A stretch of DNA of 64,000 bases from Enterococcus diestrammenae (GTDB lineage: Bacteria; Bacillota; Bacilli; Lactobacillales; Enterococcaceae): contig NZ_MAEI01000054.1 in assembly GCF_009933255.1 (NCBI RefSeq), positions 186,001 to 250,000 on the forward strand, in the 5' to 3' direction. Under the pieces are notes generated by a model. The model saw only the letters and a list, made by a program, of their open reading frames with translations, was not told the origin of the DNA and did not search any database. Both the position numbers and the translations under genes were made by a program. Positions 2,514 to 57,020 of this stretch are shown one piece after another (position 1 is the first letter of the stretch; every line of letters begins with the position of its first letter).

Positions 2514-2570
2514 AAGTCTAATTATGTTTGGTTTTACGAACTCGCCTATTTCCGAGTCAAATCTAAACTG
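2514..2570 (+). repeat. Left-half copy of the palindromic repeat family B
   Basis: The stretch beginning AGTCTAATTATG and running through GGTTTTACGAACTCGC matches, with substitutions, the left arm of the full copy at 24885-25020 (AATCTAACAATG, GGCTTCACGAACTAGC). The central hairpin and right arm are missing. It sits directly after a terminator. Confidence 0.6.
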
Positions 2571-2689
2571 AACACTGATAGCTGATAATAGACATCTTGG
2601 TAAGGTTCGCCTTACTGCTTGTGAGTTGATGAAGGAAGAATCATCTTTTTTATAGATAAAGACTTATAAAAAAAGCTCCAAAAAGTCTG

Positions 2690-3285
2690 ATGGATAAGAA
2701 ATTAAGTGGCGTATCAAGCCGTCATTATGACGCCCGAAAAAGGTGGAATTTAGCTCCGTAAGCATTGATATGACGGTAGCTAGACCGGCAAATGCCAAAT
2801 ACAAAGCAATTTGTCATTTGCCTTTGAGCTTCAAACTTAGAGTAAGTGTCACAAGTGCCACCAACTCTAAGTAATTCATCTCAATCTTGAAAGCTACTGT
2901 CATCTCAATCCTACTGCGCAAAATTTCACCCTTTTCACGGTACATATGCTACCCAATAAGAAAATAATTTGCTGAATTTACGAAGCAAAGGGAATAAATC
3001 GATTATCGATAAAACAGGGCGGACTTGCTGGAGGAGAATGACTCGGGGTGTGGTGTTAAGGATGTTCGAGGGCTAAAAGACCATTGCGCATACAGTTGCA
3101 TCTAAGCAGAGAGCGCTAAGATGAACTAGCAAATTACTTGTTGTGTCCGATGTTTTTTGTTGGACTTACAACAAGTTTGACTTCGGCAAGGCAAATGACA
3201 ACTGTTCTTTGGTTGGCATTTACTGGTCCCATTACCACCAGAGTGATTCTCCGGAAGTAAGTCCGCCGGCTTTTGTATGTTATGA
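2690..3285 (+). repeat. Mosaic non-coding repeat family A, full copy 1
   Basis: This gene-free stretch is similar over almost its whole length to the reverse complement of 47535-48135, and from about 2905 to 3285 also to 37095-37445. Shared landmarks include ATCGATTATCGATAAAACAGG, GGAGGAGAATG, TGGTGTTAAGGATG, GCATACAGTTGCATCTAAGC, and ATTCTCCGGAAGTAAG close to the right end. It contains short hairpins such as CATCTAAGC/GCTAAGATG. Short open frames exist but are not conserved between copies, so I treat it as non-coding. I see no transposase and no target-site duplication. Confidence 0.75.
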
Positions 3286-3496
3286 AAAAGGTAGAACTTA
3301 GCGACCTAGGAATTGAGATAGCTGTAGCTGGATTGGGAAAGGCCAAACGTAAAAACGTGTTTGTTATTGCTAGTTTGTTCAGCCTTTCTTACTTGGAGTT
3401 AGTTTTTTCTTTAAGAGCAAACGGGATTTTTGCCGGATAATCTTCAAGACGTTATACTGATAGTATTTTGAAACGCAAGTTAAGGAGAGAGTGACA
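3286..3496. other. Gene-free spacer upstream of the Dus gene
   Basis: The first part (3290-3345) is a diverged internal repeat of 2740-2800: both carry the pattern GTAGAACTTAGC or GTGGAATTTAGC followed by ATTGAGATAGC or ATTGATATGAC and TAGCTGGA or TAGCTAGA. The end holds the Dus ribosome binding site AAGGAGA at 3482-3488. A plausible -10 TATACT lies near 3453. Confidence 0.5.
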
Positions 3497-18827: not shown

Positions 18828-18968
18828 TAGCTCAATAAGAAAGGCTGAACGAACTCGTTCAGCTCTCGAGAATTAAGGCGAAACTGACACATGATGTTCT
18901 TTATCATGAGTCGGTTTCGCCTTAATTCCGAAGAGAGCTAGTTCGTGAAGCCAGACATTTCTAGAATT
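18828..18968 (-). repeat. Palindromic repeat family B, full copy 1
   Basis: Read on the minus strand this matches 24885-25020: GTCTGGCTTCACGAACTAGC on the left, TTCGTTCAGCCTTTCTTATT on the right, and between them a long hairpin with arms GAATTAAGGCGAAAC and GTTTCGCCTTAATTC (18870-18930). The outer arms also pair in part (AGCTCTC/GAGAGCT). It lies in the 3' region of the PTS gene. Confidence 0.75.
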
Positions 18969-19235: not shown

Positions 19236-19441
19236 GTTAGAATGGGTAATATCCGTCGATGCCGTTCTTCGTCTTATAGTATTGATCCCGCAATGATCAG
19301 CAGGTGGGTTCCACGGTGAAGGCCTAAAGCTACCAAATGATAAGGCATGCTAGCAGTCTGCACACAAGACGGATCCCGAGGTATCAATAAAGATGTTCGG
19401 TCAACACACAGAAAAGACAACTCGTACATCACAGAATTCCC
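19236..19441 (-). ncRNA. ssrS: Probable 6S RNA
   Basis: A gene-free transcript of about 205 bases plus terminator, with a clear minus-strand promoter. Its ends pair with small bulges (AAGUGGGAAU near the 5' end with AUUACCCAUU near the 3' end), as in the 6S closing stem. Complementary blocks such as GGGAUCC and GGGAUC flank a central region. 6S RNA mimics an open promoter and sequesters the housekeeping RNA polymerase in stationary phase. Position next to rarA on the same strand agrees with the usual location in Firmicutes. I identified it by layout and partial pairing, not by a covariance model. Confidence 0.65.
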
Positions 19442-24884: not shown

Positions 24885-25020
24885 TAATCTAACAATGTCT
24901 GGCTTCACGAACTAGCTTATTTCGGACTGAAGGTGGCACTGGCGCATGAGCAAAAGCCTCATGTGGCGGGTCCGCCTTCAGTCGCGAGAATTGGAGATGT
25001 TCGTTCGGCCTTTCTTATTT
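24885..25020 (+). repeat. Palindromic repeat family B, full copy 2
   Basis: It begins AATCTAACAATGTCTGG and ends TTCGGCCTTTCTTATT. The centre is a hairpin, ACTGAAGGTGG with CCGCCTTCAGT plus inner CATGAG/CTCATG. It shares both flanks with the copy at 18828-18968 but the hairpin sequence differs with compensating changes that keep pairing. It lies between the DeoC-like gene and relA. Confidence 0.75.
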
Positions 25021-33153: not shown

Positions 33154-33177
33154 TATGTCGCTGGTCTCTAGATTGGC

Positions 33178-33350
33178 GAATACCAACGAAAAGCGTGTTC
33201 GTTTTTACCATTGGGCTTCAAACATAGCGTAAGGGCACAAGGACTACCAAAACGAAATCCATTCAACCAGAAGAACAGCGTTTAGCTAGTCGGGCGTGCT
33301 AGAGAGGCTAGTTGCTAACTTGATATGTTTGAGCAATCAGTGACGGAACT
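33178..33350. repeat. Degenerate partial copy of repeat family A
   Basis: TTGGGCTTCAAACATAGCG then TAAGGGCACAAGG and CTACCAA (about 33209-33251) align with TTTGAGCTTCAAACTTAGAG then TAAGTGTCACAAG and CCACCAA in copy 1 (2823-2866). The bases before (CCAACGAAAAGCG and CGTTTTTACCA) correspond to the hairpin-like stretch at 2797-2822. The remainder is too diverged to align by eye. Confidence 0.5.
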
Positions 33351-37062: not shown

Positions 37063-37094
37063 GTATAGGCACTTTCAAAGCGACTGTCAATCCA

Positions 37095-37445
37095 ATGCTA
37101 TTCCGCTAAATCTCCTCTTTTTCACGGGACACATGGGACCTTACGAGAAAGGAATTTGTTGAATTTACGAAGCCAAGGGAATCAATCGATTATCAACAAA
37201 ACAGGGTGGACTTGCCAGAGGAGCATCTCTCGAGTTGTGGTGTTAAGGATGTCTGAGGACTAAAGAAGTATATCCCATACAGTTCACCTAAGCGGCAATC
37301 ACTAAGGTGAGCTAGCAGATTATTGGTTGCTGTTCCCTTGGTTTTTGGCGGGTTGACAACCAGTTTGGCATTTGCCAGTACTGCTAAAACTTGAGGTATT
37401 CTCCGGAAGCAATTCTGCCCAGTTTTCTTGTGTCATGCATTTTTG
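37095..37445 (+). repeat. Repeat family A, partial copy 2
   Basis: This copy matches the right portion of copy 1 (about 2905-3285) in the same orientation: TTTTTCACGGGACACATGGG, TTGTTGAATTTACGAAGCC, AATCGATTATCAACAAAACA, TGTGGTGTTAAGGATGTC, GAGCTAGCAGATTATTGGTT and ATTCTCCGGAAGCAATTCTG. The left portion is missing. The sequence from 37446 to 37769 holds no gene; GTAAAACGATTTCA near 37600 is a weak match to a CcpA site. Confidence 0.72.
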
Positions 37446-47534: not shown

Positions 47535-48135
47535 AAAAGCCAGCCGGTCTTGCTTCCGGAGAATCCCTCGGGTGGTAGTGGGACCGGTAACTGCCAACCA
47601 AAGTACAGCTGTCATTTTGCCAGCTCATCTTAGCGATTTCTGCTTAGGTGAGCTGTATGCGATATGCTCCTTCAGCCCTCGGACATCCTCGATACTACTA
47701 CCCGAGGCATTCTCCTCCAGTAAGCCCGCCTGTTTTATCTATAATCGATTATTGGATTTGTGACCTAAGACTAGCATTTTTCTTCATTGGAAAGGTAGCA
47801 GAATATCGTAAAAAAGATGAAATTTTGCGCAGTAGGATTGATATGACAGTAGCTTTCAAGATTGAGATGAATTACTTAGAGTTGGTGGCACTTGTGACAC
47901 TTACTCTAAGTTTGAAGCTCAAAGGCAAAGCTAAAGGTTCATTTGCGCATACAGTTACATCTAAGCAGAAAGCGCTAAGATGAACTAGCAATGACAAATT
48001 GCTTTGTATTTGGCATTTTCCGGTCTAGCTATCGTCATATCAATTCCTATGGAGCTAAATTTCATCTTTTTATGACATCAAAATGACGGGATGATACGCC
48101 ACTTAATTTCTGAACATCAGGTTTTTTGGAGCTTA
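47535..48135 (-). repeat. Mosaic non-coding repeat family A, full copy 3 (inverted)
   Basis: This 600-base gene-free stretch is similar to the reverse complement of copy 1 (2690-3285). It has TTCCGGAGAAT at its left end, CATTCTCCTCCAGTAAGC, TAATCGATTATT, AAAATTTTGCGCAGTAGGATTG, GTGGCACTTGTGACACTTAC, AAAGCGCTAAGATG and GGGATGATACGCC ACTTAATTTC. Compared with copy 1 it lacks the block corresponding to 3128-3195. It lies after mtnN and before the isochorismatase gene. No transposase or conserved frame is seen. Confidence 0.75.
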
Positions 48136-48287
48136 ATTTTTTTATCAACTAGAAAGGTCGGGATTTTTTTATCTGTCAAGACACTTCTGTTCGAAATACC
48201 CACAAAAACTTGGTATACTAGGAGAAAATATTCTGGTAATGCGAGAGTGTACTGCCATTGCACTGCCAGTTAACAGGAGGAAGCTGA

Positions 48288-56943: not shown

Positions 56944-56944
56944 A

Positions 56945-57020
56945 TGATAAAGAACCTCATGTGTCAGTTCCGCCTTCATTCTCGAGAGCTGAACGCGTTT
57001 GCCTTGCTTTCTTATTAGAG
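56945..57020 (+). repeat. Right-half copy of palindromic repeat family B
   Basis: TGATAAAGAACCTCATGTGTCAG, read through CCGCCTTCATTCTCGAGAGCTGAAC and TTTCTTATTAGAGC, matches the loop, right stem arm and right flank of the minus-strand copy at 18828-18968. The left half is missing; the copy starts directly at the end of the DUF1831 terminator. Confidence 0.7.

Follow-up and report, generated by a model that had tools for sequence, protein, structure and literature searches.

Family A, a modular palindromic repeat of Enterococcus diestrammenae, is a probable non-autonomous mobile element targeted to terminator tails

We analyzed a window of 64 kb (bases 186001-250000 of contig 54) in the 3.16-Mb draft genome of E. 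diestrammenae, the host, in which a first-pass annotation had described a dispersed repeat, family A. Loci, genomes and contigs are labeled L, G and C, each with a number; the window copies at 2.7 kb (copy 1) and 47.5 kb (copy 3) are L001 and L073, respectively. Copy 1 adjoins a gene for a Dus-family protein, the closest named relative of which was from E. asini (87% identity, in a comparison from which the host's own records were possibly excluded). The repeat proved to be real, and all four window places named earlier were recovered (Table 1). Copy 1 was present with slightly different limits, 2651-3276 (+) by module matches instead of the 2690-3285 given at first. The 37-kb copy was incomplete as claimed, lacking everything 5' of the right arm of rod A, the 47.5-kb copy was indeed inverted and complete, and the degenerate piece placed near 33178 scored 62 against the rod A consensus, compared with 22 for the best of 300 shuffles. 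The description of the repeat as free of open frames held for copy 1, which no frame of at least 80 aa spans; the inverted copy contains a predicted 111-aa frame on the + strand (47648-47983).

Table 1. Family A features in the window (limits of the rod A remnant and of copies 2 and 3 are approximate)
Feature	Position	Strand	Basis or remark
Copy 1, whole element	2651..3276	+	blastn, module scan
F5, AT-rich 5' segment, copy 1	2655..2737	+	module scan
Rod A, copy 1	2735..2941	+	arms 2735-2787 and 2887-2941; inner hairpin 2835-2873
Linker, copy 1	2941..3011	+	module scan
Rod B left arm, copy 1	3011..3072	+	module scan, fold
Cassette X1, copy 1	3072..3131	+	module scan, fold
Cassette X2, copy 1	3134..3191	+	module scan
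Rod B right arm and T-rich 3' end, copy 1	3208..3274	+	module scan, fold
Second rod A, partial left arm, immediately 3' of copy 1	3284..3333	+	
Degenerate rod A remnant	33168..33265	+	rod A consensus score
Copy 2, 5' side truncated	37074..37429	+	starts near the T-tract of the terminator 3' of a histidine kinase gene
Copy 3, complete, inverted	47535..48142	-	extra inverted X1 in rod A; absent in 7/8 same-genus genomes

The module scan of 40 copies revealed a non-coding element of about 600 nt with a fixed mosaic order of F5 (~90 nt, AT-rich), rod A (~205 nt), a linker (70 nt) and rod B. Rod B consisted of a left arm (61 nt), one to three cassettes of ~58 nt (X1, X2) and a right arm (69 nt); the blocks first described as shared and boundary-like, GGAGGAGAATG and ATTCTCCGGAAG, are its two arms. 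Where both arms were present in order (28 copies), the cassette content was X1 (12 copies), X2 (5), X1X2 (6), X1X2X1 (4) or X2X1 (1), a 29th row, L063, being a tandem and left out of this count. Rod B measured close to 204, 266 or 324 nt in most copies and was shorter or longer than this in a few, and the 3' end of the element is the rod B hairpin followed by a T-rich tract. An inverted X1 lay within the rod A part in 12 of the 40 copies, directly behind the left arm in 9 of those. Rod A was absent from L056, L063 and L068 and inverted in L047, and in the collapsed copies L062 and L326 its left arm was joined straight to the 3' end. Recombination or secondary insertion may have moved X1 and X2 into and out of the rod loops.

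Many copies per genome had been predicted, and a blastn search of the first copy against its own genome had been proposed as a check. With window 2560-3440 as the query, this search returned at least 105 pieces in at least 40 places (40 of 153 candidate stretches scored), and all 40 places were retrieved with their flanks and used for the anatomy above. A covariance model of rod B (R1) gave at least 112 matches, both strands counted (150 of 1222 candidates scored), and a 19-base pattern of the 5' end gave 56 matches at up to 3 mismatches and 42 at up to 2; the reversed pattern gave 11. When places within 1 kb were merged, their number rose from at least 40 by blastn to at least 70 with model matches (E up to 1.1e-5) and at least 88 with pattern matches (up to 2 mismatches), many of the 88 being partial or degenerate.

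To define the landing site, we scored the sequence upstream of the copies for intrinsic terminators (hairpin plus T run). In a scripted test, 23 of 26 copies had a terminator immediately 5' of F5 (L029, at a contig end, was left out), and three of these 23, L059, L069 and L075, look weak or odd; a stricter first test gave 19/26 copies vs 15/300 random positions. Further 5' ends found by pattern were behind a terminator in 15 of 17 cases (of 30 fetched pattern loci, the 17 that lie outside the 40 copies). Among control sites, random positions in the window scored positive in 62 of 600 cases and T runs in 138 of 463, and the pooled 5' ends (38/43) differed from the random positions with a Fisher P of about 1e-28. 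Between the end of the hairpin and a point 2 nt inside the 5' motif lay 7-11 nt in 13 of the 15 pattern positives and 14 and 16 nt in the other two. Among 13 fetched copies without F5, a looser search found an upstream terminator-like hairpin of -8 kcal/mol or below in 11; at L028 the scripted hairpin falls in a gene, and by inspection a terminator ends just before the copy. The failures of the scripted test were L063, the 5' end of which adjoins rod B of another copy, and L001 and L073, two of the three window copies; the hairpin upstream of F5 in copy 1 is weak (-2.8 kcal/mol, T6). The failure of L001 and L073, the three doubtful positives and the 30% of T runs that generally score count against terminator targeting.

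The hairpin sequences vary between copies, indicating that the terminators belong to the host site, and their stems are complete at the 5' flank; the element mostly lies on the strand on which its terminator acts. Of 39 copies, 36 shared their strand with the nearest upstream frame (binomial P 3.6e-8; one of the 40 copies has no upstream frame), the exceptions being L016, L073, which has neighbors on the opposite strand on both sides, and L001, possibly wrongly, a short + frame ending at 2418 having been passed over. Downstream frames were on the same strand in 22 copies and on the opposite strand in 18. Landings behind another element also occurred: family A behind family A (L063), family A behind a second palindromic family, B (L322), and family B behind rod B (L057), and partial rod A pieces trail L001 and L007. 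The position of most examined copies behind the terminator of another gene suggests a mobile element that uses terminators as landing sites.

Occupied and empty orthologous sites were then compared between species, and relatives lacked the element at matching gene pairs. In 7 of 8 same-genus genomes, the matches of the genes flanking the 47.5-kb locus were separated by 26-63 nt, vs 811 nt in the window, and G006 carried 535 nt of other sequence (the sequences from seven genomes were viewed). At the 37-kb locus, the gap was 85-129 nt in 6 of 8 genomes vs 800 nt in the host, where unrelated extra sequence is present too; it was 1482 nt in G006, and the upstream gene differs in G007. The host's terminator and ensuing element at C16:5.4-6.1 kb correspond in E. 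asini to 78 nt that include a terminator, and the spacing in the other four genomes was ~182 nt (G003), ~460 nt (G006) or more than 2 kb (G009 and G002). E. asini was rejected as an empty site for the 2.7-kb copy, other genes being present there.

No obvious terminal duplication had been seen at first, and the flanks agreed: left and right flanks were no more alike than shuffled pairs in 20 copies (P = 0.27, with some left ends misplaced) or in a cleaned set of 16 copies (P = 0.40), with which a 2-bp TA duplication is still compatible. These values bear on a classical DDE-type MITE, in which the rod arms would be the inverted repeats and the T-tract or TA the target. Rods A and B are each palindromic and many 5' and 3' boundaries read as a T-tract and then TA, as such an element would have them; however, the outer ends form no clear inverted repeat, flank likeness is no better than shuffled, and DDE-type elements are not expected to insert in one fixed orientation behind terminators, and we consider this explanation unlikely. 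Untargeted insertion followed by selective survival, with copies lasting only downstream of terminated genes, is quite unlikely. Placement downstream of genes could alone reflect tolerance, as argued for pneumococcal repeats in an excerpt of PMC3049150, but tolerance alone predicts neither the near-constant spacing between 5' end and T-tract nor an orientation matching the upstream gene. We therefore favor as probable the explanation that family A is a non-autonomous mobile element targeted to terminator tails; the mobile-element option, one of several raised by the first-pass annotation, draws support from the dispersal of the copies, from empty sites at orthologous loci, from tandem copies and from the constancy of the landing site.

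The folds of rod A, rod B and X1 are backed by compensatory changes. The rod A fold (21 copies) comprised 66 pairs with 96% of cells paired and 19 pairs changed on both sides, and its 93 double-changed cells compared with a shuffled mean of 30.5 (0/500 shuffles reached 93). The rod B fold (12 copies) comprised 56 pairs with 92.7% paired, 11 pairs changed on both sides vs 5.0 in shuffles, and 14 double-changed cells vs 7.0. For X1 (37 distinct sequences, several species), 97.3% were paired and 44 cells were double-changed vs 9.8, in an alignment fitted to its model. Related copies inflate all of these double-change counts. GU vs AC cells, an indicator of which strand folds, numbered 27 vs 27 in rod A, and in rod B, where the fold had been chosen on this strand, 50 vs 23 by cells and 26 vs 21 by columns. 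The palindromes are thus maintained, but not clearly as RNA; with no clear GU/AC strand bias, they could be kept as DNA, and an RNA role is possible too. The earlier option of a structured RNA family thus stood as regards maintained folds and not as regards the strand signal of wobble pairs. Functional structured RNAs or 3'-UTR elements under selection, spread by recombination rather than transposition, are very unlikely: strong folds with compensatory change and placement 3' of genes on the same strand speak for them, whereas the wobble strand bias is absent in rod A and by columns in rod B, module content is highly variable, truncated and collapsed copies are common, and orthologous loci of relatives lack the element.

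We also assessed the spread of the element. By blastn, matches were present in 3 of 59 genomes including the host, the other two with fragments only, and the rod B model, under stricter filters, matched in 5 of 105 genomes of the host's family. Outside the host, which has full-length rod B matches, a single such match came from E. gallinarum (E 3.5e-29), where 3 of 5 stretches start behind a terminator by inspection; E. asini gave one weak full-span match (E 7e-4), the right half of which resembles the right arm by eye, and the remaining model matches were X1-type pieces. A 77% similar piece was found in 10 of 72,556 plasmid records, all of E. faecium, and adjoined an IS982-type transposase gene in the two records inspected; plasmid searches with the X1 context of two relatives (E. 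gallinarum and G005) gave no match. X1-type palindromes were present in 34 of the 105 genomes of the host's family (host included) and in 20 of 45 named ones, with counts of 11 in E. avium, 10 in E. raffinosus, 8 each in E. asini and E. gallinarum, 7 in E. canis and 5 in E. hulanensis. Of 20 X1 sites fetched from E. avium and E. raffinosus, 14 belonged to another composite element with a different body, 172-335 nt long (12 copies with the right end found) and behind a terminator in 12 of 14; L274 and L285 resemble a single orthologous site shared by both species. The 5' ends of this E. avium-type element scored above all 1000 shuffles against the family A end matrix (mean log-odds -6.4 against -15.7), and shared ends were rejected in favor of a loose likeness only, the mean being negative.

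Other palindromic elements were observed alongside. Family B, the second dispersed family, occupies window 18834-18965, 24888-25019 and 56944-56999; it resembles the E. avium-type element in its 3' end (GTTCAGCCTTTCTTAT) and in its GGCTTCACGAACTAGC arm, and its copies also adjoin family A (L057, L322 and L314). A 6S RNA (RF00013) at window 19246-19440 (-) adjoins a family B copy. In E. asini, L195 (G007:C2:329361-329627) carries four X1-type palindromes in series at ~70-nt spacing, and L177, L181, L186 and L189 are other composite hairpin elements with X1 and an internal terminator-like stem. L256 (G006) is a further composite hairpin element with similar outer arms and a terminator-like stem inside.

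As a visible mover, neither a group II intron nor a Y1 transposase was found intact in the host genome, which counts against the favored explanation. Remnants of known insertion sequences, proposed as a point of comparison, were covered in part, through two protein families: the draft assembly, which may miss an intact Y1 copy, held one IS200-type Y1 domain only (L219, C9) with two in-frame stops, and the sole RVT_1 match was truncated. One group II intron was found (L220, C15; RF02004, 170.7 bits); its reverse transcriptase frame is truncated, and by inspection the intron does not follow a terminator. The Rfam comparison, also proposed earlier, found no family above the gathering score in the element, group II introns included. 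Phage origin was rejected, with no match among 50,697 phage records; 16 exact 16-mer matches in viral contigs look like chance, with best whole-element scores of 32-39 vs 610 for a real copy.

Group IIC introns enter the genome on the 3' side of intrinsic terminators and in a single orientation. Family A resembles them in this terminator-side, single-orientation insertion, but has no group II family match. IS200/IS605-type elements (Y1/HUH), including REP/RAYT, have terminal hairpins, a fixed flank, no target duplication and single-strand chemistry; the likeness is one of such described features, and the difference is that the only Y1 domain found in the host carries two stops. EFAR of Enterococcus faecalis is built up from many types of sequence and inserts into stem-loops, deleting most of the target stem. 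Family A shares the modular assembly of palindromic units with EFAR, whereas it leaves the terminator stem whole. EFAR is cited as an enterococcal MITE in an excerpt of PMC3733652, and Efa-1 appears in an excerpt of PMC2267715 as a 163-nt element that has two neighboring stem-loops and is present in 65 (18) copies; by description, both are like family A in being enterococcal, modular and variable in length, with paired stem-loops. BOX of Streptococcus pneumoniae and S. suis comprises two end modules with a variable number of modules between them, folds like an RNA and occurs in clusters and as nested insertions (excerpt of PMC3049150); its modular arrangement is matched by description in the 28 copies in which rod B arms flank variable cassettes. 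Family A differs from BOX in its genus, its two rods, its two cassette kinds and its fixed distance behind terminators. We file it, by these descriptions, as a variant of the modular hairpin-repeat kind beside BOX and EFAR, and its best reading is a BOX/EFAR-like non-autonomous mobile element that enters behind a hairpin and T-tract in a single orientation.

Four features taken together, namely spacing that hardly varies, one orientation, no detected target duplication and a hairpin-T 3' end, lead us to infer a putative enzyme that would act in trans, recognize a hairpin and T-tract, probably as a folded single strand, cut 3' of it and join the element there. Single orientation, absence of target duplication and tandem copies would then follow from one rule, because rod B plus TTTCT resembles the target. 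Taken alone, the single-strand cut-and-join step is doubtful. It is likewise possible, though doubtful, that an enterococcal class of cassette-like elements moves as folded single strands, with an enzyme that would cut behind any hairpin and T-tract, a hairpin of this sort at the 3' end of the element, each insertion thereby rebuilding the landing site and terminators serving as genome-wide docking sites for unrelated bodies under one rule.

Modular repeats such as BOX and EFAR are not known to have an established mover, and a fixed, testable landing rule permits a concrete assay with cloned terminators as targets. These results also suggest that mobile DNA has rebuilt many enterococcal genes at their 3' ends.
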